Positions 2,396 through 58,527 of a stretch of 64,000 bases of DNA are shown here, in pieces (the stretch's first letter is position 1; each line of letters opens with the position of its first letter). Where the stretch lies: the IMG/VR virus record IMGVR_UViG_3300036823_000301, positions 1 through 64,000 of that record, one strand, 5' to 3'. The notes under the pieces were generated by a model. That model ran no database searches and was not told where the DNA came from. It saw only the letters and a program-made list of their open reading frames with translations. The translations under genes were made by a program, and so were the position numbers. The stretch is from a virus.

Positions 2396-2899
2396 ATGCA
2401 AGATCGGATCGCCATCATCATTGATGGCACGAACATTCACCACGCCAGCCGTGCGCTAGGAATCGACATCGACTACGATAAATTGTTGAAATGGTTCAAC
2501 TCACAAGGCCGTTGCGTACGTGCTCTATACTACAACAGCATCCCGACAGGCGAGGAATACTCCCCTGTCCGTCGGCTGGTTGATTGGGCCTCTCGCAACG
2601 GCTTCGTGGTTGTGTCCCGGCCAGATGATGGGGAAGCGGAAAAGCCTCGTTTCAATGTCGATATGGCCTGCCATATGCTAGAACTAGCAGACAGAATCGA
2701 TCATTTTTACATTTGTGCAGGATCGGCGGAACTCAGACTGCCGGTGGATATCATCCAGCGGAAGGGTGCGAGGGTTACTGTTGTCAGCACCGTTCGCACT
2801 CAACCGCAGCACGTCAGTGACAGTTTGCGGCGTCAGGCCGATGGATTCATCGACCTGAATGACCTCAAAAGCATTGCACGCTCCACAGCCGACAGCTAA
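2396..2899 (+). CDS. NYN-domain (PIN-like) protein, LabA/DUF88 type
   Basis: The N-terminus IAIIIDGTNIHHASRAL (residues 5-21) and the NVDMACHMLELAD segment (D89) match NYN-domain ribonuclease-fold proteins. The third acidic cluster, usually SGDGDF, reads CAGSAELRLPV (107-117) and lacks both aspartates. Either catalysis is lost and the protein only binds nucleic acid, or another residue substitutes. At 167 aa the length is normal for a single NYN domain. It lies between the HTH gene and the SNF2-like helicase. Confidence 0.75.
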   Translation: MQDRIAIIIDGTNIHHASRALGIDIDYDKLLKWFNSQGRCVRALYYNSIPTGEEYSPVRRLVDWASRNGFVVVSRPDDGEAEKPRFNVDMACHMLELADRIDHFYICAGSAELRLPVDIIQRKGARVTVVSTVRTQPQHVSDSLRRQADGFIDLNDLKSIARSTADS

Positions 2900-5529: not shown

Positions 5530-6123
5530 ATGCATAACGAGAACAACGTTGTCAGCGAATGGGCTGACACGATGGATGACGTCCCGCAAGGTCCGAGCGG
5601 GGAACAGTTGTCTGTCGTGATTGGACTTGCTCAACGACAAACTCAACTTGAAGATTACATTGAACTGCTCGAAAGGGACCTAGATCAATCGAAAGCGGAT
5701 CTCCGCAGAATCCAGGAACGTGAGTTACCGGATGCCATGCAACTGGCCGGTATTGAAAACTATACACTGAATGGTGGACGTAAGGTTGAAATCGTCACAT
5801 CGATCGTAGCCAGTCCGACAAATGACCAAAAGCCGCTGATGTTGGAATGGCTACAAAACAACAACCACGCCGATATCGTCAAGCACGAGCTCAAGATCGG
5901 TTTCGGTAAGGGTGAAGACGACATTGCCAAAAAGTTGAAAAGCTGGCTTGGCATGCACCTACCGAAACAGAAGGTAGACGACAAAACGTTTGTGCATCCG
6001 CAGACATTGAATGGTTTCGTTCGCGAGATGTTTAGAGAAGGTTACGACATTCCTGATACGTTTAACGTAACGTTCCTCCGGAAGAGTGTCGTATCCCGCC
6101 CAAAGGGAGACGGTCCTCTGTAG
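5530..6123 (+). CDS. conserved phage replication-module protein, 197 aa
   Basis: The N-terminal half is a predicted coiled coil (QTQLEDYIELLERDLDQSKA). Next comes a compact domain with RELPDAMQLAGIENYTLNGG, KVEI and DIVKHELKIGFGKGEDDIAK. I recall this pattern from conserved phage proteins encoded beside single-stranded DNA binding proteins and helicases, with no assigned function. It lies directly upstream of the SSB gene with a clear GGAGGG ribosome site (5518-5523). A role in DNA metabolism follows from position only. Confidence 0.65.
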   Translation: MHNENNVVSEWADTMDDVPQGPSGEQLSVVIGLAQRQTQLEDYIELLERDLDQSKADLRRIQERELPDAMQLAGIENYTLNGGRKVEIVTSIVASPTNDQKPLMLEWLQNNNHADIVKHELKIGFGKGEDDIAKKLKSWLGMHLPKQKVDDKTFVHPQTLNGFVREMFREGYDIPDTFNVTFLRKSVVSRPKGDGPL

Positions 6124-6181
6124 CTGTCCCCCTGCCGCCACCGGCGCGGTTCCTGCCGGCTAACGAGAATGGAGACTATGG

Positions 6182-7030
6182 ATGATTACCAAGACGGTAA
6201 CACGAGAGCACGAACACGAGGCACCTCCAGTCGAGCTGGAACAGGCGCTGGTGACGCAGGACGACGTCTATGAGGGCACAGCTGGCCTGGGTATGGATGG
6301 CGCCACCGCTGACGATTTTGGTCGTCCGCCGCAACTGCGGATCTTGCAGTCTAACAGTCCAGAGGTGAACGAGGCCGAGGGTGCTTATGTGGTTGGTGCC
6401 AAAGCTGGAATGATCATTGATACCGGCACCAAAGAGGTCTTTGACGGCAAGGTTGGAATCACTTTCATACCAGTCAGCCGCGATCACCAATATGTCCAGT
6501 GGCACCAACGGGTTAATGGCGGTGCCGGCGGCGGATTCGTCAAAGTTCTGGCGGTGTCCGATCCCATCATTGCTGAGCTCAAAAAGGCACAAGGCGCTTT
6601 CAACAAGCTGATTTTGCCAGACCAGGACGAGCTGGTGGAGACGTTCCCCCTGTTCGGTCTGGCCATTGCCGCCGGGCTGGCTGATGAGCAATGTTCCCCC
6701 GCGATGATCGCGTTCGCCTCGACGCAGATCAAAAAATACCAGATGCTCATGCAGCGGTTGAACAAGTACATGCGCGATCCGCGAAACCCACCGATGTGGG
6801 CATGGCGGTGGAATTTCGGGACGCAGTCGGAACGTAATAAGAAAGGCTCGTTCTACGGTTGGCGTATCAATCTAGCCAACGGGAATCCAGCAGATTCCAT
6901 GCTGTCTCCGCGTAGCTTCCTCGTCGGCGAGGCCAAGGCATTCTACCAGCAGATCCGGGAAGGCCGTGTCACAGCCGACTATGTCACAGCTGGGCAGCAG
7001 CCCGAAAACGAAGACGACATCCCGTTCTAA
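6182..7030 (+). CDS. phage single-stranded DNA-binding protein with SSB-type acidic tail
   Basis: A 282-residue protein whose last residues are ENEDDIPF, essentially the DDDIPF tip that bacterial SSB proteins use to recruit partner enzymes. The body (for example KVGITFIPVSRDHQYVQW and NKKGSFYGWRINLANG) fits an OB-fold phage SSB rather than host Ssb. It sits between the coiled-coil protein at 5530 and the primase at 7082, in the replication block. The ATG at 6182 has GGAG eight bases upstream; another ATG at 6178 is out of frame. The tail suggests it docks host repair proteins or the phage's own primase and helicases. Confidence 0.75.
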   Translation: MITKTVTREHEHEAPPVELEQALVTQDDVYEGTAGLGMDGATADDFGRPPQLRILQSNSPEVNEAEGAYVVGAKAGMIIDTGTKEVFDGKVGITFIPVSRDHQYVQWHQRVNGGAGGGFVKVLAVSDPIIAELKKAQGAFNKLILPDQDELVETFPLFGLAIAAGLADEQCSPAMIAFASTQIKKYQMLMQRLNKYMRDPRNPPMWAWRWNFGTQSERNKKGSFYGWRINLANGNPADSMLSPRSFLVGEAKAFYQQIREGRVTADYVTAGQQPENEDDIPF

Positions 7031-14697: not shown

Positions 14698-15552
14698 ATG
14701 ACAACAACTGTAAGAGTTATAGCAGACAGCTATTACGATCACGGTGTTCGCCTCACAACATTACAATTGAAATACCCGCGCTTCATTCATCCGGAATTTT
14801 TGACTCATCGTGTGTTTTCAAGAAACGCGAGCTCTTCGCGGGCAACCCCTGTTGAGCGTATCATCGAATCGCTTGAGCGCGATCCAGTACGTCCATGTGA
14901 ATGGGGTAAAAACAGACCTGGTATGCAGGCACATGAAATTTTCGACCCTCTCGAAGTTTTTGAATTGGAGAGTTTATGGATAGACGCCATGGCCGAGATG
15001 GTTCGTGTGGCCAAGAATATGGTAGCTCGTGGTGTACACAAATCCATCGTGAATCGACTATTGGAGCCATGGTCCCATATCAATGTGATTGTGACATCGA
15101 CAGAGTGGTCAAACTTTGAAGAATTGCGTTGCCATCCAGACGCCGCACCGGAAATGCAAGAATTGGCTCAAGCCATTCGTGATGAGATGGTGTTAAGTGG
15201 CCCACAAATTCTACATGCTGGTGAATGGCATATTCCATATGTCAACTTGATTGAACGCAGTCAGCTGAATCTACAGGCACAGTTGAAAATAAGTGTGGCT
15301 CGCTGCGCACGTGTGTCGTTTTTGACACACGAAGGCAAAGTACCTCAAACTGCTAAGGATTTGGAGCTTTACGATCGTTTGGTTGGTGCGAAGCCGCTGC
15401 ATGCCAGCCCATCCGAACATCAAGCTACCCCTGATCCGACGAATGCTCACTGTTCCGAGCATGGTAATTTTCGTGGCTGGCGGCAATTCCGCAAAATTCT
15501 GGAGAAAGATTCGACACTTTTAGCTTTACAGCAGACCGCCATAGCAGTATGA
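14698..15552 (+). CDS. thyX: flavin-dependent thymidylate synthase
   Basis: The ThyX motif appears as THRVFSRNASSSR (36-48), matching RHRxxSxNxxSxR except that the first residue is Thr. NRLLEPWSHINVIVTSTEWS is the typical C-terminal substrate/FAD region. It makes dTMP from dUMP with methylene-tetrahydrofolate, completing the nrdAB operon. Its last codons overlap the promoter predicted for the downstream noncoding RNAs. Confidence 0.9.
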   Translation: MTTTVRVIADSYYDHGVRLTTLQLKYPRFIHPEFLTHRVFSRNASSSRATPVERIIESLERDPVRPCEWGKNRPGMQAHEIFDPLEVFELESLWIDAMAEMVRVAKNMVARGVHKSIVNRLLEPWSHINVIVTSTEWSNFEELRCHPDAAPEMQELAQAIRDEMVLSGPQILHAGEWHIPYVNLIERSQLNLQAQLKISVARCARVSFLTHEGKVPQTAKDLELYDRLVGAKPLHASPSEHQATPDPTNAHCSEHGNFRGWRQFRKILEKDSTLLALQQTAIAV

Positions 15553-15553
15553 A
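15525..15553 (+). promoter_or_regulatory. promoter for the Y RNA block
   Basis: TTTACA (15525-15530), exactly 17 nt, then TATGAA (15548-15553). It lies across the thyX stop codon. The predicted start falls at about 15559-15561, the first bases of the closing stem of the first RNA element. The positional agreement makes this one of the better promoter calls here. Confidence 0.55.
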
Positions 15554-15557
15554 GTCT

Positions 15558-15691
15558 GTGTCGAGTCGGATGAGGTTGATTATCCTTTTGGCGGACGAGG
15601 TCGAAGGTTCGAGTCCTTCTCCTAGGGTAAATCCTAGGGTAGCTCAGCTGGTAGAGCGCGCGTATATCAACTTTGAATTTTTACTCGACAC
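15558..15691 (+). ncRNA. yrlA: Y RNA-like element 1 with tRNA-mimic module (YrlA type)
   Basis: The ends form a 9-bp stem (GTGTCGAGT 15558-15566 with ACTCGACAC 15683-15691). A hairpin follows at 15568-15585 (GGATGA/TTATCC). Its loop side AGGTTGAT (15573-15580) can pair with ATCAACTT (15666-15673). Between them lies a complete T-arm, acceptor stem and D-arm in circularly permuted order. Bacterial Y RNAs of the YrlA family are known to carry such a permuted tRNA mimic at one end and a Ro60-binding stem at the other, and the next gene encodes Ro60/Rsr. The folding is by hand; no energy was computed. A permuted tRNA gene is the main alternative, but no credible anticodon stem-loop can be drawn. 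Confidence 0.8.
15603..15657 (+). other. circularly permuted tRNA-like module inside Y RNA element 1
   Basis: The T-arm GAAGGTTCGAGTCCTTC (15603-15619) is followed by TCCTAGG (15620-15626), a 6-nt loop (GTAAAT), CCTAGGG (15633-15639), TA, and a D-arm (GCTC 15642-15645, loop with GG, GAGC 15654-15657). The two acceptor strands pair over all seven positions, the last as G-U. The order is 3' half then 5' half, joined at the acceptor end. Both AvrII-type CCTAGG strands are themselves palindromic. Confidence 0.85.
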
Positions 15692-15707
15692 TGAAGTTTG
15701 TTTGTTG

Positions 15708-15772
15708 GTGACAGTCGGATGAGTTCGTTTATCGCTAGGATGATCGCGAATTCATAAAATACTTACTGTCGC
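15708..15772 (+). ncRNA. Y RNA-like element 2 (no tRNA module)
   Basis: Closing stem GTGACAGT (15708-15715) with ACTGTCGC (15765-15772), one G-U pair. Hairpin GATGAG-TTCG-TTTATC (15718-15733). Its GAGTTCG (15721-15727) can pair with CGAATTC (15747-15753) with one G-U. The 5' motif AGTCGGATGAG is identical to element 1, and the 3' motif CTTACT is shared with element 3. The architecture matches the other two elements. Confidence 0.65.
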
Positions 15773-15780
15773 TCTAAATC

Positions 15781-15857
15781 GTGATGCTAGTCGGGTAGTG
15801 TCGTTTATCAGTTATCAACTGATCCAACGTGTGACATTAAAGACTTACTAGCATCAC
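15781..15857 (+). ncRNA. Y RNA-like element 3 (small inner hairpin)
   Basis: A perfect 11-bp closing stem (GTGATGCTAGT 15781-15791 with ACTAGCATCAC 15847-15857). The 5' motif AGTCGGGTAG opens a hairpin with TTTATC. TAGTGTCG (15796-15803) can pair with TGACATTA (15832-15839). A perfect inner hairpin CAGTT-ATC-AACTG (15809-15821) occupies the position that holds the tRNA mimic in element 1. Confidence 0.65.
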
Positions 15858-15863
15858 TTTACA

Positions 15864-15901
15864 ACGGCCCGGACAACTAGCCCCTCTGTCCGGGCCGTTT
15901 T
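15864..15901 (+). terminator. intrinsic terminator after the Y RNA block
   Basis: A perfect 12-bp stem ACGGCCCGGACA (15864-15875) with TGTCCGGGCCGT (15887-15898), followed by TTTT. It ends the noncoding block 22 bp before the rsr start codon. The protein gene must therefore be expressed by read-through or from its own promoter. Confidence 0.85.
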
Positions 15902-15923
15902 GATTCTATCGAAGGAATAGAAG

Positions 15924-17561
15924 ATGACCAACGTGTATGTGAAGAACCGTAAGTCCGTTCTGACACCGCAGAACCAGCCGATTCCAGGCCGTGAAGCTGA
16001 AATGGTGCCGAATAATGCCGGCGGCTACAGCTTTGAGCTGGATGATTGGGAACGTTTGAATCGCTTTTTGATTCTGGGTAGTGAAAAAGGTACTTATTAT
16101 GTAGGCCAAGAAAAACTTAAAGAGCAAAATGCGACCTGTGTGATTCGCTGCATCAAAGCGGATGGTGTGCGCGTTGCTGATGCCGCTGCGATGATCAATA
16201 TCTCTAATCGCACGCCGAAGGTTGACCAGCAGCTGTTTGTTCTGGCTTTGTGCTTAAAGCATGGGGACATCGCTACCCGACGTCGTGTAGCGGAGCTGGT
16301 GCCATCAGTTGTCAGAATTGGTATGCATTTGCTGCATTTCGCGGCGATGGTGGATTCGCTTGGTGGCTGGGGAAACCTCAAAAAGCGGATCTTTGCTGAC
16401 TGGTTTCTAAACAAGTCGCCGGATGATGTGGCATTTCAGATCCTGAAGTACCGGAATCGGGATGGGTGGACCATGCGCGATATCCTGCGTCTGGCGCATC
16501 CTAAACCAGAATTTTCCGGCCATATGGCGTTGTTTGCATGGGTCACCGGTAAGCTGACAAATCTTGACCATCTACCCCGAATCATCGCTGATTATCTTGA
16601 TGTGACGACAGGCACCTTCGAGACCCCTGTTCAGCAAGCGCTGGCTGGCATTGCCAGGGGGCTACCACGTGAGTGCCTACCAACGGAGGCACTAGCGGAT
16701 AAGGCCGTCTGGAGCCGGTTGCTAAGGCTCACGCCGCCACATGCCTTAATCCGGAATCTCGCAACGATCACGGCCAATGGCACCATTGTCGCCGGGAATG
16801 CTGACGCGTGCTATGTGGTCGAACGTTTGGAAGATGCCGGGTCTTTGGCGCGGGCACGGGTGCACCCATTCGCGCTCCTATTGGCGGCGCTCATCTATAG
16901 GCAAGGACACGGATTCAAAGGCACGTTGAGCTGGCTCCCCCTGCCATCTGTTGTGGGTGCATTAGACAATGCTTACGACGCTGCCTTCGCCACGATCCTG
17001 CCGACGAACAAGCGGATCTTGATCGGAGTGGATACATCAAGATCGATGAGCGGTTCTTGCACAGGGACTCCGATCGACTGTGCCACGGCAGCGGCTGCGA
17101 TGGCGATCACGTTGGCCAGAAACGAACCTGCGGCAACTGTCGTGCGGTTTGATACCTGTGTCAGATCTATCCTACCGGTGACTCTTCGTACCGGAATCAG
17201 CGATTTAAGATCGACGTCAGGGGGAGGCACCGACATATCCGCTCCAATCCGTTGGGCCTCTGGCGACAAGAGTGTATCAACGTCACGTTGGGGCCAGCGT
17301 GACGAGGGCTTAATGAGCGAAGTGAGGATATTCGACGCTTTCATCATATTGACTGATAATGAGACATGGGCTGGATCTGGTCATCCTTCACAGGCCCTGG
17401 TGGAATACCGTAAGAAAGTCAATCCACAAGCCAAGCTAATTTGCTGTTCGATGGCCGCGAACCATGCCAACATTGTTGACCCGGAAGATGGTGGATCGTT
17501 CGGCACCGCCGGGCTTGATGCCCATTTACCAAATTTGGTCAGAGACTTTTTGAGCTCTTGA
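15924..17561 (+). CDS. rsr: Ro60 orthologue (TROVE and vWA domain RNA-binding protein)
   Basis: The TROVE half includes NRDGWTMRDILRLAHPKP (178-195), the best-known Ro60 signature, in a helical repeat array. The C-terminal vWA domain has a complete MIDAS: DTSRSMSG (370-377), GGGTDIS (about 435-441) and ILTDNE. At 545 aa it matches the usual Ro60 length. Ro60 forms a ring that binds Y RNAs on its outside and misfolded or damaged RNA ends in its cavity. In bacteria Rsr acts in RNA quality control and stress, with Y RNAs as gates or tethers to nucleases. The upstream block at 15558-15857 is the matching Y RNA set. The stop overlaps the ATG of the next gene. Confidence 0.93.
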   Translation: MTNVYVKNRKSVLTPQNQPIPGREAEMVPNNAGGYSFELDDWERLNRFLILGSEKGTYYVGQEKLKEQNATCVIRCIKADGVRVADAAAMINISNRTPKVDQQLFVLALCLKHGDIATRRRVAELVPSVVRIGMHLLHFAAMVDSLGGWGNLKKRIFADWFLNKSPDDVAFQILKYRNRDGWTMRDILRLAHPKPEFSGHMALFAWVTGKLTNLDHLPRIIADYLDVTTGTFETPVQQALAGIARGLPRECLPTEALADKAVWSRLLRLTPPHALIRNLATITANGTIVAGNADACYVVERLEDAGSLARARVHPFALLLAALIYRQGHGFKGTLSWLPLPSVVGALDNAYDAAFATILPTNKRILIGVDTSRSMSGSCTGTPIDCATAAAAMAITLARNEPAATVVRFDTCVRSILPVTLRTGISDLRSTSGGGTDISAPIRWASGDKSVSTSRWGQRDEGLMSEVRIFDAFIILTDNETWAGSGHPSQALVEYRKKVNPQAKLICCSMAANHANIVDPEDGGSFGTAGLDAHLPNLVRDFLSS

Positions 17562-31351: not shown

Positions 31352-31665
31352 CAGGTTTTGCTGGAAACGAGCGACGTGATGGGTGCTGTGGTGATATAGC
31401 GCATGCCGTAACTGGCGCCGAGCACGATCAAACCATCGATCAAACTTGTCGTGGCTTCGCTCCAGCCGAGGCCATAACGACTCACCAGCCAGCCGAGCAC
31501 AGCCGCTCCAAGCACACCCCAAGGCGTCTTGGACGCGATCAACGCCTTGCCGGTCAATTGCGTAGCAAGATCCGGATCAATGGCTTTGAATTTTTCAATC
31601 AGATCCGTCAGAGAACGTGCATCACTAACTGCGATGTCAACAAGTGAAGTGTTATATCTAGCCAC
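31351..31665 (-). CDS. holin-like membrane protein, 104 aa
   Basis: A soluble N-terminus is followed by two hydrophobic segments (WGVLGAAVLGWLVSRYG and LIDGLIVLGASYGMRYI). I chose the GTG at 31665, with AGGAG nine bases upstream. It overlaps the end of the endolysin gene by eight bases, the usual endolysin/holin pairing. Confidence 0.6.
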   Translation of the reverse strand: MARYNTSLVDIAVSDARSLTDLIEKFKAIDPDLATQLTGKALIASKTPWGVLGAAVLGWLVSRYGLGWSEATTSLIDGLIVLGASYGMRYITTAPITSLVSSKT

Positions 31666-32191
31666 GATAACCAACTCCTGTCGGGATGTAATGTTCGTCC
31701 GGATACCAGGAACCGGCAAAGAGTTTTTCCTGGTCGGAAACGGAAATACGTTGGACATGATCCATATCCACAAAATGACCTGGAGTGGATTCGCCCCAGT
31801 CACCACCCCACACTAAACCATGCTTTCGCGCAAGATCCCCTAGCAATCGAAAATTACCTTGCCAAGACGGCTGTCCATAATCGTCAAAGACAATATCGCA
31901 GCCGAGGCCGTAGTGATGCACGCCGACATTTTTGAGTTGGGTTGAACCCTGGCTAAATAGATATTGTTGACGTTGTGGGCTGCGATAGGTTTCGAACACC
32001 ATCAATGAGTAACCAAGTCCTGAAGCATCAGAAATAATACTGTCCACCGCCGCACGGGTGACTGGCTCCAAATAGGTCGTGTCAGATACACGCGTAGTGT
32101 TCTGGAAATACTTAGATTTTAACAAGAAATCTGTATAGAAATTTCCATTCGCGGTGGGCGCTGCCTTCACTTGTTCAATTGTACGATACAT
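31658..32191 (-). CDS. M15-family peptidoglycan peptidase (endolysin)
   Basis: Zinc-site motifs: VHHYGLGCDIVF (His, Asp) and PGHFVDMDHVQ (His), with WGGDWGES between, as in D-Ala-D-Ala carboxypeptidase/L-Ala-D-Glu endopeptidase endolysins. I chose the ATG at 32191, preceded by AAAGG. There is no signal peptide, so release depends on a holin. Confidence 0.85.
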   Translation of the reverse strand: MYRTIEQVKAAPTANGNFYTDFLLKSKYFQNTTRVSDTTYLEPVTRAAVDSIISDASGLGYSLMVFETYRSPQRQQYLFSQGSTQLKNVGVHHYGLGCDIVFDDYGQPSWQGNFRLLGDLARKHGLVWGGDWGESTPGHFVDMDHVQRISVSDQEKLFAGSWYPDEHYIPTGVGYRG

Positions 32192-32209
32192 TATTAAACC
32201 TTTCAATAT

Positions 32210-32683
32210 TTAGATATATGCGTAGGCGGCGATGCGGTGGCCTCCCGTATCTGCGGTCCAAGTGATCGCATTTGTCGTCGGCCCGATGGTGACTGTATGA
32301 CCGGGGGGGATCTCCATAGAGGTCGATCCCCCTGTGTCTTGCGCGACACCAACAGGATCGACCCAGATACTCTCGACTGAACCAATCCCCTGCCCAATCG
32401 GGCTTAAAGGATTACAGATGACGACTGTAATACCTGGTATGACCACAGACTGCTGCAAACTCTGTGGCACTGTGGAGGCAACCAGAACCAGATTTCCGGT
32501 AACGCTAATCGGTGTAATAGTGCGGCCCATCACCGGCAATGCGTGCGTACTGTCCACCGGCCAGCCATTTGATCTGGGCACTGTCTGTGGAATGACATTA
32601 CCGGATGTATCCATCATCCAATCGGCCGCGCGCTGCACGCCGCTACCGTCTACAATGTCAACAATTGCTGGCATATCAGCCAT
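32210..32683 (-). CDS. putative minor virion protein, 157 aa
   Basis: A beta-rich protein whose C-terminal half (STSMEIPPGHTVTIGPTTNA) looks like small fibre-associated proteins. It lies downstream of the fibre genes. No exact family is recognised. Confidence 0.5.
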   Translation of the reverse strand: MADMPAIVDIVDGSGVQRAADWMMDTSGNVIPQTVPRSNGWPVDSTHALPVMGRTITPISVTGNLVLVASTVPQSLQQSVVIPGITVVICNPLSPIGQGIGSVESIWVDPVGVAQDTGGSTSMEIPPGHTVTIGPTTNAITWTADTGGHRIAAYAYI

Positions 32684-32693
32684 TTGAACCTCG

Positions 32694-33110
32694 TTAGCCC
32701 CAGATCATCGTCATCCAGGAATTTTGTGGTTTACCAAAATCGATTGACGGCACATAGGTCCAAGTTGTCGAGCTGCCAAAGCCGGCGACAGGGGGATCGA
32801 GGATGGGCCATATGGCAAATACCCGATCGATGTAAATCCAGCACTGATATTCGATTGGCAGCGTGCCGAATGGGGTCACATCGACCTTGACAAGGTAACT
32901 GCGTCCAGCTTGCCCCCCGGATAAGCTGAATTCCACCAGATCCCCAGCAACATTGAGCGCATTGATCGTGAGCTCTCCTGCCCCACTCGGTTGCACCCAA
33001 GCCTCGACTTGCTGAAGACTGACTCCCAGGAGATCTTCCGAGATGTCCAAGCCATAAGTGCGTGTGGACCCAGGCTCTTTTCCTGGCCAACGGAGACAGC
33101 GGGAGCTCAT
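32694..33110 (-). CDS. putative virion/fibre-associated protein, 138 aa
   Basis: It contains a beta domain (EFSLSGGQAGRSYLVKVDVT) of the kind found in phage fibre-tail adaptor or decoration proteins. The function is inferred from position between fibre genes. Confidence 0.5.
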   Translation of the reverse strand: MSSRCLRWPGKEPGSTRTYGLDISEDLLGVSLQQVEAWVQPSGAGELTINALNVAGDLVEFSLSGGQAGRSYLVKVDVTPFGTLPIEYQCWIYIDRVFAIWPILDPPVAGFGSSTTWTYVPSIDFGKPQNSWMTMIWG

Positions 33111-52414: not shown

Positions 52415-53084
52415 TTAGCTCAAAGTGATCGTCAACGCTCCGCTCGCAATGACCAGCGAGTCTCCAATTCCTAAAGTTCTCACGGTTGAAAGCAAACCGT
52501 ACCAAAGATAAGAACCATTAGTGCTGGAGGCAGTATCCCAAATTGAAATACCAGATACAGAGCATGCACCGGACACCGGGCCGAAGGTCATGGCCACCGT
52601 ATTGGAGGCAGAACCGGCAGGCGAGGCGGCAGGGGCAAACGACACAGTTTGCCGCGTGATACCAGACCCCAGAGCGATTTCTGAAGCTGATACCGAAGAC
52701 GGCGAACCCAACGAAATATTGACACCCATTGCACCAGGGCGCGTTGGAGTCGCCCCGAGCAGAACCCAATCAAGCATCCTATGTGTTCGCGACAGGCCGT
52801 TAATCCTATCACCGCTCTTTCGAGCTGCTGCATATCCCTATGCAGAGCAGATCATGTCATCACCCATTGCATCAAATGGGGCCGGGCGCTTCCACTCACT
52901 TGAGTGTACTCCCTCGCGGGATGATCGTTGCACCTTCCGTCTTGCGACGGCTTGGCTCAAAGTTAACCGTTCTGGTACTTCTTTGAGTTCACCCGGTTCT
53001 TCGATAGATTTCTCAATCTAAAGGGCCAAAACTCATTCGTTACGGAGTCTTTGCCTTTTGGGCATACGTGCTGATACCAGCCAC
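52415..53084 (-). CDS. small tail fibre/virion protein, split by a group I intron
   Basis: Exon 2 (52777 or 52774 down to 52415) encodes LDWVLLGATPTRPGAMGVNI through GALTITLS, a small conserved phage tail protein whose homologues start with an 'M-x-x-x-YAxNKLLDWLL' segment. That start is absent next to exon 2. It appears 270 bp upstream as VAGISTYAQKAKT (GTG at 53084-53082, with AGGAG at 53098-53094). Joining 53084..53046 to exon 2 restores a single frame of about 132 residues. The ATG at 52777 would otherwise be taken as the start, but this removes the conserved N-terminus. Confidence 0.75.
52778..53045 (-). ncRNA. group I intron (IA2, T4 td-like), no internal ORF
   Basis: Reading the minus strand, the 3' half follows the T4 td intron closely: GGTGCAACGATCATCCC, a CCCGCGAGGG hairpin, CTCAAGTGAG, CATGATCTGCTCTGCAT, ATATGCAG and GATTAACGGCC. 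Core helices can be drawn: P2 (TAGATT/AATCTA), P3 (CCGGG/CCCGG), P7 (GATCAT/ATGATC), P8 (CCCATT/AATGGG), P9 (CTGCAT/ATGCAG) and a P9.1 GNRA hairpin (GCTC-GAAA-GAGC). Exon 1 ends in U, pairing with an AGUUUU guide, though as U-A rather than the usual U-G. The 3' boundary is 52778 or 52775; both keep the frame. Confidence 0.9.
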
Positions 53085-54343: not shown

Positions 54344-56680
54344 TCAAGGTGATGCGAATGCGATTGACGGACCCCAGTCACTGGTTCCAGCGCTGGTGAT
54401 GACTTGAACTTGCGCGAGGTAAAAATCGCCAGATACGGCGCCAGACAGCGAAAGCTGCCAAGTTGTTGAGCTCGTCTGTGTAGGACTTGAAATGAATGTA
54501 GCATAACCGGGTGATAGAGAATCAAACGTCCAACGAAAGTTGAATGTTGGAGTTCCTGTCCCAACCCATGTCCAGGCTATCAGCGGCTTTCCAGCAGTTC
54601 CTCCAGCTAAATGGACATTTGTAGGAACTGGAATGATTGTGAAAACAGGTCTTGTTGTAAATGGGCTCGTCGTAAACGGTCCGTATGTCTGCGACGTCGG
54701 TCCCGTCCCCTGTGCATTTGTTGCCTGGACCTGGAACCATACTGGGATGCTGTCAAATGACGCCGACACAAGATAATTTGTTAACGCTTGAAAATTGACG
54801 ACACCCCAGCCTGTGCACGCATCCCACCCGTTGTTAACAACAGGATAGCCTGGAGATCCATTGCTACTATTATTCGTGCCACTACCGGATTGCGTACCGA
54901 TATCGCGAATGGTTAATAAAAACGGAATTGGGTCATTAACCTGAGCCCATACAGAGTTTGCATCACCAGGAGATTTTTCATAAAATAAGCCAGAACTGTT
55001 CTGTTGAAAAAGCAAATCAATGGGCGGGCTCATGTATAATAAATACACGACGTTTGCTGTTGTCGCATCCACGGTCCCATGGTTTGCGATTTGCAAACCA
55101 TTATTTGCTGACGTAACGAGGCTAAAAACATTACCGTGGGTGTCAGTAATATTGACACCGGCCCCATTAGCCGCTTGCGCGTTCCACAGACCTTGTTGAA
55201 TATGATATATTGTTGGATTAAGAAACCCCAACGGACGCCCCAACGCTTGCATGACTCTGGCAAGGCAACCGGCATACTGCGGTGCTGTCACACTAGTTCC
55301 ACCAATCACACCGAACGCGCCGTTAACTTCGGTATTGTAACCGCTGAATGAGCTAGCATTCCCTGCTACATCAGGCATTCCACGCCCTATAAAACCAAAA
55401 TCCGACTGTGCTGGCATATTTGGGACGTAGATCGTCTGATAAGTAGGTCGTGGAAAAATTCTGCTTATGCCACCCCCTGTCGCACCGATACTATTTGGGT
55501 TATCGTTCCAAACCCATTCAGTGAATGTCGGATATTGACCGGTGCCGATGCTAGCGACTGTGGTCCCACCTGTATTTAAGATCCAAGGGCTGCCACAAGG
55601 ATAAGCTATCCAATTTTCCGTTGTTGATGGAAAGTAATTTGAAGATCCTTCATCACCAACAGCAGAGATGATTGTCACCCCAATAAGTGCAGCGTCCTCA
55701 TGATAAGTCTCACATGCATTAAAAAAGGGAATGTATGTATTCTGTTCAAAATCTTCCGTAAAAACACTTGATATTGAAAATAGAGTTACAACAGGATCAC
55801 CTGGATTGGGATGCAACATTCGTGCAAGCAACTCTGGATAATTTTCAGCTGAGCGATCAGCAAAATAAATCGCTAAAGTTTTCACACCTCCGGAAAATCC
55901 CAAGATCATAACATTATCGACGTTACCTTCTCCAGCATCTCCACTATTTGGATCAGATCCATTTGTGCTCCCATCGACAGACACGAACACTGTGCTCGTC
56001 GTCGTGCCAGCAGAAGCTAAACCCCAATTGTTCAAAGTATTTTGAATTTCTGTAGCATTCTGAAGCCAACCATAAAGACCAATAACTTGCTGATTAGCGC
56101 TTGTTGTCAATCCGCTGTAAATCCCAGATATCTGTTGTGGTGTAAATGAAACACCATTAGGTAGATCGGCTGGAGGAACTGTAGCGCGAACAGCTTTATA
56201 TTCTGTATGCACACCGAGAATCGCATGCAGCATCGGATGAATATGGTCCGGAACGTGAAATCCCGTATGCGTCCGAAATTTGTAGCGGCCTAACCTTGGG
56301 TGTTCCTTTTCATAATGATGAATTTCAGTATGAAATGCCTTTTCCAACTGATCGACCGAAGCGTTAACGACAACCATACGGCGGGAGCCGTGTGATTCAC
56401 ACCAACTGAAGCCAGATGCTTTACAGAAACTCTCTATCGCTCTGATCTCATCAGGATGAGCACCATACTTCTGTTGAAAGTCCGGATCTTGCCGTGTCCG
56501 AGGTGGGCAGCCCAAGAACTCATAAAACTCCGGAATCGGATCGTGCCCCGGCCGACGGCGAAGGTGAAACTTCACACGGATAGATTCATCTTTAGGGGCA
56601 CGGCCGACATAAGTCGTCCTCGCAGGATCAGGGGGGAACCTATGCGCTGGGGCTAAAGCTTTGTATCCGATAGGGGGCAT
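54344..56680 (-). CDS. S53 serine-carboxyl peptidase (sedolisin/kumamolisin-like) with fn3 tail
   Basis: A pro-domain (VNASVDQLEKAFHTEIHHYE, RTHTGFHVPDH) precedes the catalytic domain. The Glu/Asp pair is in GDAGEGNVDNVM, the oxyanion Asp in ISAVGDEGSSNYFP and the nucleophile Ser in IGGTSVTAPQYAG. Two fibronectin-like segments follow at the C-terminus. No signal peptide is seen. I chose the ATG at 56680, overlapping the GH16 stop, over a TTG at 56701. S53 enzymes are acid proteases; a virion-borne copy may digest host surface protein or mature tail parts. Confidence 0.82.
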   Translation of the reverse strand: MPPIGYKALAPAHRFPPDPARTTYVGRAPKDESIRVKFHLRRRPGHDPIPEFYEFLGCPPRTRQDPDFQQKYGAHPDEIRAIESFCKASGFSWCESHGSRRMVVVNASVDQLEKAFHTEIHHYEKEHPRLGRYKFRTHTGFHVPDHIHPMLHAILGVHTEYKAVRATVPPADLPNGVSFTPQQISGIYSGLTTSANQQVIGLYGWLQNATEIQNTLNNWGLASAGTTTSTVFVSVDGSTNGSDPNSGDAGEGNVDNVMILGFSGGVKTLAIYFADRSAENYPELLARMLHPNPGDPVVTLFSISSVFTEDFEQNTYIPFFNACETYHEDAALIGVTIISAVGDEGSSNYFPSTTENWIAYPCGSPWILNTGGTTVASIGTGQYPTFTEWVWNDNPNSIGATGGGISRIFPRPTYQTIYVPNMPAQSDFGFIGRGMPDVAGNASSFSGYNTEVNGAFGVIGGTSVTAPQYAGCLARVMQALGRPLGFLNPTIYHIQQGLWNAQAANGAGVNITDTHGNVFSLVTSANNGLQIANHGTVDATTANVVYLLYMSPPIDLLFQQNSSGLFYEKSPGDANSVWAQVNDPIPFLLTIRDIGTQSGSGTNNSSNGSPGYPVVNNGWDACTGWGVVNFQALTNYLVSASFDSIPVWFQVQATNAQGTGPTSQTYGPFTTSPFTTRPVFTIIPVPTNVHLAGGTAGKPLIAWTWVGTGTPTFNFRWTFDSLSPGYATFISSPTQTSSTTWQLSLSGAVSGDFYLAQVQVITSAGTSDWGPSIAFASP

Positions 56681-58527
56681 TAGAATGGCCGTGTCTTCCA
56701 AACTTGGACGTAATCAATACCCATTGTCGCAGGGAGTAGTGCAGGATTGGTGATTGGGCCAACCCAATCACTCACTACATTCGCTCCAGCGGTATATTCG
56801 ACAATGATGAACATTGGCGTTGTCTTATAAACACCGCCTGGATTAGCTACCTGAAACGTCTGCACACGATCTATATAAAATGTGATAAAATCAGATTGCC
56901 AATTGCATCCATAAGTATGATAAGCTGATACATTAAAGTTCGTATACGTGTTATTTTGGTATGAATACCAGTCTTGTGTTGAATTGTCAAGGTTGTGTAC
57001 ATCCATATGAACAATCCACGGCGTAACGTTACCGTTTCCTGTGTTACCTTGCGGTGAGACAATTTCAAAAATATCGATCTCCGGCGGATCAGCATTGGCT
57101 GTCAACCAAAAGGCAGATCCACCACCTTGAAGTAACGGAGTCGAACACCTTATTTCAAAGTATCCGTAGAGTTGACGAAATGTCTGCTCCGTTGTGATAA
57201 TACCTTGCACATATTGCGTGCTACCAATTGTGTTGACTGTCGTCTGGCTCTGCGGCGTGCGAATTGATAACCCAGCTATGCTGCTAGATACAATAGTATA
57301 GACGCCAGTCTCCGGTGTATTTGGGTCAAACGGATTTATGGTATATCCGCCCCCCTGTACATTACCATCAGACACATACCAGAGGGCCGGTTGCCACGTC
57401 CCCCCTGCCGATACATTTCTGGTGCTGTAGAGACTGATCGATGTTCCCGTAAAATCATCAAAAAATGTGCTAGGATTAGTGATGGGAGCCTCACCACTAC
57501 CCCCTGCTCCACCGGTCAACACAGGCTGCACGGTCGTCGGAATATTGATCGGCATATTTACGGAGCCAGAAGGCGTCGTAAATTGCGAGACGTTTTGAAA
57601 AGGCCCGTTGGGTGACGTAGCTGCAAATACATTGTAGGTGACAGGGGCAGCACCTAACGTATCTGCGGACATGACAACGTTAAAAAGGTAATTCAGATTC
57701 GTGTAACCATTCGGAGTTGCACTTAACAAAGAGATTGCGCCCGGTGCTCCAGCCTGTGGTGTGATTATGTTCAGTGTCGGCGACACAGTTTGGCCAAAGT
57801 GATTGCTCGCAACAACTTGGAAATCGTAGTTCGTGTTTGGCAGCAATCCGGTGATAGTTTCCGACAAAGGCGTCGTGACAGAGGAACCGATATTGGCCCA
57901 CGCAGACACCGCTACGAGATCGGTCGAACCGAATCCAATGGGTGGAATATAGGTCCAGGCCGCTACCGAAAACGCCGCAACATGATGATCGGACAAAGCA
58001 AACAGCACGATACCAGGGACAACCGGAAACGCAGTCACGGTCGATGGTATCGGAATTCCACCAATGTTTGTTGACGGGTTTGCTGTTCCAGAATTGTTCC
58101 ACGGTCCAGCACCAACACGGCCCCAGACACGATTATTATTGAGGTCAAAAGCGAACCGAACCGTCTGTCCTGTTGTATAGGATTGCCATGTGGCAATCGC
58201 TGAACCATTATTGAAGACTGTGCCACTACTATCCCAACCGATTTCGTCTAAACTGGCTCCTAAATTGTTTGAAGTTGATGAGTTCGTGTTGCCAATACCA
58301 ACACGTGTAGTATTGGCAAAGTTGACTGTGATTTCGAAATTAAATAAACCTGACGAATATGAATTTGCGGCAAACGCTTTGACAAAAATATTATTCGCAC
58401 TTGTTGAAACAGCGACACCGCCGCTGGCAATCGTTACCGATACATTAGTATGGGTCGGGCTGAAAATCTGCACGACTGTGATGGGATGCACACGCTGCTG
58501 CACCTGATAAGAGACGCTGCCACTCAT
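56680..58527 (-). CDS. SPRY-fn3-GH16 glycosidase (beta-glucanase/agarase-like), 615 aa
   Basis: The first residues (SGSVSYQVQQRV) look like the second half of a fibronectin domain. A SPRY-like domain (DEIGWDSSGTVFNNG, RFAFDLNNNRVWGRVG) and an fn3 domain come next. The C-terminal GH16 domain has the catalytic EIDIFE motif and GYFEIRCSTPLLQGGGSAFW before it. It probably cleaves a beta-linked host polysaccharide. The fn3 beginning seems to lie in the preceding gene (see findings). Confidence 0.8.
   Translation of the reverse strand: MSGSVSYQVQQRVHPITVVQIFSPTHTNVSVTIASGGVAVSTSANNIFVKAFAANSYSSGLFNFEITVNFANTTRVGIGNTNSSTSNNLGASLDEIGWDSSGTVFNNGSAIATWQSYTTGQTVRFAFDLNNNRVWGRVGAGPWNNSGTANPSTNIGGIPIPSTVTAFPVVPGIVLFALSDHHVAAFSVAAWTYIPPIGFGSTDLVAVSAWANIGSSVTTPLSETITGLLPNTNYDFQVVASNHFGQTVSPTLNIITPQAGAPGAISLLSATPNGYTNLNYLFNVVMSADTLGAAPVTYNVFAATSPNGPFQNVSQFTTPSGSVNMPINIPTTVQPVLTGGAGGSGEAPITNPSTFFDDFTGTSISLYSTRNVSAGGTWQPALWYVSDGNVQGGGYTINPFDPNTPETGVYTIVSSSIAGLSIRTPQSQTTVNTIGSTQYVQGIITTEQTFRQLYGYFEIRCSTPLLQGGGSAFWLTANADPPEIDIFEIVSPQGNTGNGNVTPWIVHMDVHNLDNSTQDWYSYQNNTYTNFNVSAYHTYGCNWQSDFITFYIDRVQTFQVANPGGVYKTTPMFIIVEYTAGANVVSDWVGPITNPALLPATMGIDYVQVWKTRPF

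Follow-up and report, generated by a model that had tools for sequence, protein, structure and literature searches.

The record IMGVR_UViG_3300036823_000301, from an uncultured bacterial virus, carries, between thyX and a gene for an orthologue of Ro60 (rsr), a noncoding block of 371 nt (15553-15923) that holds three tandem Y-type RNAs, here called Y1, Y2 and Y3 (Table 1). Ro60 is an RNA-binding ring protein; with its Y RNAs it is a human autoimmune antigen, and its basic function is still debated. The window that we analysed is a 64-kb stretch of this 74,423-base IMG/VR record. The locus is a divergent new member of the known phage Ro60/Y RNA kind and is not a new kind of system; what we add is the anatomy of an array of three RNAs, covariation evidence for it, and a survey of phage arrays that are missed by the Rfam cut-off for YrlA.

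Table 1. Features of the Ro60/Y RNA locus (positions in the window) and, in the last line, the Listeria phage P100 region discussed in the text
Feature	Position	Strand	Basis
thyX-like thymidylate synthase (context)	14698..15552	+	Pfam Thy1, E 6.6e-10
Weak promoter candidate TTTACA-17-TATGAA, spans the 3' end of thyX	15525..15553	+	read by eye; below scan threshold
Y1, YrlA-type Y RNA with circularly permuted tRNA-like module	15557..15692	+	model R1, Rfam YrlA, R3
Shared Ro-module motif AGTCGGRTRRKKTYGWTTATC (21-nt consensus), Y1 copy	15564..15584	+	exact match
Y1 T-arm mimic GAAGG-TTCGAGT-CCTTC, 5 bp, 7-nt loop	15603..15619	+	sequence, fold, R1 alignment
Y1 acceptor-stem mimic, 7 bp, loop GTAAAT	15620..15639	+	sequence, fold
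Y1 D-arm mimic GCTC-AGCTGGTA-GAGC	15642..15657	+	sequence, fold, R1 alignment
Y2, simple Y RNA: Ro-binding stem and short hairpin, no tRNA module	15706..15774	+	fold z -3.8, shared motif, R3, compensatory stem
Shared 21-nt Ro-module motif, Y2 copy	15713..15733	+	exact match
Y3, simple Y RNA, short hairpin only	15782..15856	+	fold z -3.7, R2, R3, compensatory stem
Shared 21-nt Ro-module motif, Y3 copy	15789..15809	+	exact match
Intrinsic terminator, 13-bp perfect stem (arms 15863-15875 and 15887-15899), 11-nt loop, T tract TTTT	15863..15903	+	fold z -6.2
Ribosome-binding site AAGGA, 7 nt 5' of the rsr ATG	15912..15916	+	sequence
rsr, Ro60 orthologue, 545 aa, TROVE then Ro60-type vWA	15924..17561	+	Pfam, phmmer, alignment
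P100 ROOL/gp165 region	L174:34073-34624 and 31571-33091	-	Rfam and protein family matches

Judged from its sequence, the open reading frame of rsr encodes an intact, full-length Ro60/Rsr that is predicted to bind Y RNA. Its matches to the Pfam families TROVE (E 6.5e-23, 82 bits) and vWA_Ro60 (E 1.2e-39, 136 bits) both exceed the cut-offs, and solved Ro60/Rsr chains match it almost from end to end (phmmer, E 1.2e-88 to 5e-83). The metal-ion-dependent adhesion site (MIDAS; DxSxS, T, D) is complete, consisting of D370, S372, S374, T436 and D478, and these residues are invariant across 11 phage Ro60s (the window protein and ten others, alignment A1). Also invariant in the same 11 proteins are K175, R179 and H192, which align with K170, R174 and H187 of vertebrate Ro60, the residues assigned to Y RNA contact in structural work on Ro60. 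A preliminary description of the window, made from its letters and the translations of its reading frames, had proposed a full Ro60 orthologue with TROVE and vWA domains and a complete MIDAS, and the HMMER/Pfam matches and the alignment bear this out.

Y1, Y2 and Y3 share a covarying Ro-docking stem and differ in their distal part. A 28-nt repeat occurs three times in the block, once in each RNA, and the 21-nt Ro-module motif is present in three exact copies; the number expected by chance, even with a tolerance of three mismatches, is 0.08. Each copy begins a stem that pairs with its own complementary strand in the fold. The sequences of the closing stems differ among the three RNAs and 28 of their 30 cells are paired; five of the ten pairs are changed on both sides, compared with 1.6 in shuffles and 0-2 when the partners are slid. 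Relative to dinucleotide shuffles, the fold of the block as a whole is better by 5.6 standard deviations. In Y1 the two strands of the Ro stem enclose three tRNA-like elements: first a T arm, then a closed acceptor-like stem, then a D arm. This order is a circular permutation of tRNA and agrees with that in the Salmonella YrlA structure (PMC11472068); because a loop closes the acceptor-stem mimic, it lacks a free 3' end. That Y1 is a genuine tRNA gene is ruled out, as ARAGORN finds none there. Y2 and Y3 each have the long closing stem, the conserved internal motif and the second stem of a Ro-binding module. The preliminary description had therefore seen correctly that the block contains a YrlA-type tRNA mimic but had understated the number of Y-type RNAs, reporting one where there are three. 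It had also given the block its own promoter and terminator: the terminator is clear and stands between the array and rsr, but a promoter scan found nothing above threshold directly upstream of the array and the one candidate is weak.

Covariance models of the RNAs were built from other phages only, because inclusion of the window led MAFFT to misalign the closing stems; the window sequences thus provide an independent test. Model R1 represents YrlA and was made from five actinophage RNAs, R2 represents simple Y RNAs and was made from five others, and R3 represents the Ro module and was trained on 68 matches of R2 at viral loci other than the window. The last training set, with 64 distinct phage Y RNAs, has a Ro-module covariation score of 0.79, compared with 0.24 when shuffled and at most 0.16 when slid. 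In the 64-kb window R1 matches Y1 at 58 bits (E 7.6e-14), the only other match being a 13-nt fragment (E 5). Within the 371-nt block the top three matches of R3 are Y1 (E 5.6e-5), Y3 (E 1.4e-4) and Y2 (E 7.3e-4), followed in fourth place by the terminator hairpin (E 0.11). Over all 64 kb R3 finds only Y1 and Y3 (Y3 at E 0.025) and R2 gives Y3 an E of 0.33; in these whole-window searches Y2 is the one RNA detected by neither R2 nor R3, so that, taken by itself, it is the least secure of the three and is placed by its array context and by covariation.

The search of the block with a YrlA covariance model that the preliminary description had called for does return a match with Rfam YrlA (RF02553) at 15561-15691 (33.3 bits, E 1.4e-5), but at a score below the gathering score of 69 bits, with the result that Y1 is missed by a default Rfam scan. 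With the same model, the YrlA-like RNAs that accompany Ro60 in other phages score only 27-52 bits, and its cut-off is reached at 0 of nine further viral loci. We use the name 'YrlA-type' for Y1 because the curated cut-off misses phage members generally; common phage arrays escape it and phage Y RNAs are therefore under-annotated.

Ro60 is present in 343 deposited phage records (tblastn), mainly of Mycobacterium and Streptomyces phages, where the usual annotation is 'Ro-like RNA binding protein'. An alignment-based scan found it in 417 IMG/VR contigs, the best 80 of which were kept, and in many bacteria, whereas a single-protein query of IMG/VR gave no matches. Seventy-five viral loci have at least 1 kb of upstream sequence; they are a selected and not a random set, and among the matches in them a few could be genuine tRNAs or fragments. 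In 55 of these 75 loci one or more Y RNAs lie within 1.5 kb upstream of Ro60, in 36 at least two and in 25 at least three. The array in the window is thus typical, arrays of several Y RNAs being frequent in viral loci, and the rarity of Ro60 with Y RNA in phages had been overstated in the preliminary description. The locus with the closest Ro60 in our tree (L013, support 98) has five Y RNAs, and bacterial Ro60 loci likewise have several.

Some further RNA matches were seen at or near such loci. Chloroflexi genomes (L131, L136, L141, L147 and L148) have long arrays of Y RNA model matches 3' of Ro60. One phage Y RNA (L014:2720-2793) reaches the gathering score of the Rfam nematode stem-bulge family ceN72-3_ceN74-2 (38.1 against 38 bits), and a weak match to that family lies at L003:2194-2328; stem-bulge RNA is a relative of animal Y RNA, and phage and animal Y RNAs may have more in common than has been assumed. 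A Pistol ribozyme (L008:4955-5011, 56.8 bits) is located in the tRNA cluster of Gordonia phage GMA2, near a tmRNA and a YrlA-type RNA.

In 2014 Chen et al. reportedly recorded Y RNAs close to Ro60 in over 250 species of bacteria and phages, each with at least one that is tRNA-like. The Y RNAs of bacteria and mycobacteriophages had been described earlier (Chen et al. 2014, as cited in PMC12282133), and Ro60 has been noted in jumbo phages and mycobacteriophages (PMC7824862, PMC7765460, PMC12363180). In Deinococcus radiodurans a Y RNA tethers polynucleotide phosphorylase (PNPase) to Rsr (PMC6181284, PMC8394870, PMC4726728). The window locus resembles this Rsr/Y RNA/PNPase system (RYPER) in having a Ro60 orthologue (E 2e-84) and, near rsr, a Y RNA with a Ro-binding stem and a tRNA-like arm, but it is phage-encoded without a PNPase of its own, it has three tandem Y RNAs ahead of rsr, and tethering of PNPase is only putative here. 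The rsr-yrlBA-rtcBA operon of Salmonella likewise contains rsr and two Y RNAs, and one of these, YrlA, adopts a circularly permuted tRNA fold (PDB 6CU1; PMC11472068, PMC7790460); in the window, by contrast, three Y RNAs lie upstream of rsr and the neighbours are nrdAB and thyX. The 74-kb record has no match to RtcB or RNA ligase and no RtcB adjoins rsr, which rules out an RNA-repair operon of the rsr-rtcBA type at this locus.

Among actinophages, the Ro60 proteins of mycobacteriophages Dandelion (L006) and Farewell (L004) and of Gordonia phage BearBQ (L003) are 36-39% identical to that of the window, and tandem simple and YrlA-type Y RNAs lie directly upstream of their genes (three in Dandelion, two each in Farewell and BearBQ). 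Their protein and RNA sequences have nevertheless diverged from those of the window, and the YrlA-type RNA, which is the first of three in the window, is the middle one in Dandelion. Vibrio and other jumbo phages are also large tailed phages that encode a Ro60/TROVE protein (PMC7765460, PMC7824862), but their genomes are several times larger and the passages of those papers that deal with these loci do not describe Y RNAs there.

It has been suggested that abundant noncoding RNAs of the P100-like Listeria phage CKA15 are Y RNAs beside an Rsr protein (PMC12282133). Protein and RNA matches on P100 rule out CKA15/P100 as evidence for the expression of phage Y RNAs. The P100 counterpart protein (gp165, 506 aa, assigned by size and place) belongs to DUF2828/DUF7788; it has no TROVE match and does not align to the window Ro60 except over a short vWA stretch. 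On P100 the R3 model has no matches and R1 has only weak ones centred on tRNA T arms, while the RNA upstream of the gp165 gene matches ROOL (86 bits, E 1.3e-16, slightly under the cut-off). The CKA15 'Y RNAs' may have been mis-assigned. The presumed equivalent of gp165, CKA15_055, is reported to occur in purified virions (PMC12282133), and a ROOL-associated protein in virions is worth attention.

A Pfam scan of the window proteins places nrdA, nrdB and thyX upstream of rsr, and baseplate wedge and hub genes support assignment to a myovirus, as the preliminary description had it for both. The two genes 3' of rsr have no family assignment and match nothing at the other Ro60 loci compared; hence no conserved partner gene was found. 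Searches of the phage record also found no PNPase gene and no tRNA genes. Since RtcB and RNA ligase are missing from the record too, a partner enzyme would have to come from the host if it is not encoded in a part of the genome that the record lacks.

We put at about one half the probability that the locus is a phage Ro60 ribonucleoprotein set whose docked RNAs would recruit or redirect a host exonuclease, for example PNPase, during infection. The analysis establishes the identity of the protein, the structures of the RNAs, their tandem order and the recurrence of the set in other phages; transcription of the locus, binding of the RNAs to Rsr, the partner enzyme and the benefit to the phage are all matters that we infer. 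By analogy with the Deinococcus Rsr/Y RNA/PNPase system, the Y RNAs would dock on the outer face of the Ro60 ring, each partner stabilising the other. Through its tRNA-like end Y1 would then link the ring to an enzyme of the host that holds structured or tRNA-like RNA. PNPase is the foremost candidate, since the phage record lacks a PNPase gene; Y2 and Y3 would serve as gates, occupying the ring without recruiting the partner enzyme of Y1. The outcome would be a machine for the decay or quality control of structured RNAs, such as damaged rRNA and tRNA fragments, in the infected cell. In favour of this reading as a whole are the intact Ro60, the recovery of the three RNAs by models built from other phages, their compensatory stems, the recurrence of the array layout in other phages and the absence of RtcB, RNA ligase and PNPase from the record. 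Two points weigh against it: in 20 of the 75 phage loci these models show no Y RNA, which leaves room for a Ro60 that works by itself or with RNAs that have diverged; and work on PNPase tethering concerns a single bacterium and might not hold for phages.

Other functions can be proposed for the same parts. Y1 keeps a full tRNA T arm and D arm, and its YrlA module might act as a sponge for enzymes of the host or of rival phages that recognise tRNA D/T arms or elbows, such as defence RNases or tRNA-modifying enzymes, with Ro60 only stabilising a decoy that protects translation. DusA and TruB act on YrlA (PMC8394870), the authors of PMC7790460 propose that YrlA could be a competitive inhibitor of anticodon nuclease, and the phage record is without tRNA genes. 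The anticodon arm, however, which is the target of anticodon nucleases, is the very part that the Ro stem replaces, the acceptor end is closed, and a decoy leaves Y2 and Y3, which have no such module, unexplained; we consider it unlikely. The absence of a recruiting module from two of the three window Y RNAs would suit an RNA chaperone or stabiliser, in which Ro60 shields structured RNAs or mRNAs of the phage, the Y RNAs are gates and no nuclease is recruited. Ro60 is known to bind misfolded RNA ends while Y RNAs gate access to it (PMC4726728), and the locus sits among genes of nucleotide metabolism. Such a role seems improbable to us in view of the tRNA-like module, which is kept in Y1 and, by a simple motif test, in 33 of 90 phage loci; its retention implies a partner that binds tRNA-like RNA.

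The locus might also be cargo, a host rsr locus captured by chance, perhaps recently, and non-functional or unselected in the phage. Transfer does occur, since Ro60s of viruses and of cells alternate in the tree, with 16 changes of label. Yet the open reading frame and all its MIDAS and RNA-contact residues are intact and the stems of the RNAs have been kept through compensatory change. The window protein moreover falls in a set of 56 rows, 51 of them viral (FastTree, local support 98), and its nearest relatives share only about 41-44% identity with it, none exceeding about 44%; both facts point to long maintenance. Chance cargo is therefore disfavoured, and we regard it as highly improbable.

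Side observations elsewhere in the window concern genes and RNAs of other kinds. In the half that holds the replication genes, a putative RNase with a NYN (PIN-like) domain is encoded at 2396-2899 (+ strand; Pfam E 2e-23), and two adjoining genes at 5530-7030 (+ strand) match the cyanophage Pam3 gp33-like and gp34-like families (DUF7307, Pam3_Gp34). A group I intron (Rfam RF00028, 54.7 bits) lies among structural genes at 52828-53044 (- strand). In the structural region, too, a gene at 54344-56701 (- strand) encodes a protein of 785 aa that has a pro-kumamolisin activation domain (sedolisin-type protease) and no match in 50,697 phage records; the product of the adjoining gene (56680-58527, - strand) is 615 aa long, contains a glycosyl hydrolase 16 domain and is perhaps a virion depolymerase.

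To return to the recruitment of host enzymes by docked Y RNAs, we tentatively raise the possibility, which we hold with less confidence than recruitment itself, that phages generally encode interchangeable Y RNAs, one with the tRNA module and others with different heads. These would fit one Ro60 ring with several adaptors and, during infection, might redirect various RNA enzymes of the host either simultaneously or one after another; if so, the locus would be a modular, phage-run platform for RNA processing. Phages that carry compact Ro60/Y RNA sets are simple and genetically tractable systems in which to test the function of Ro60.

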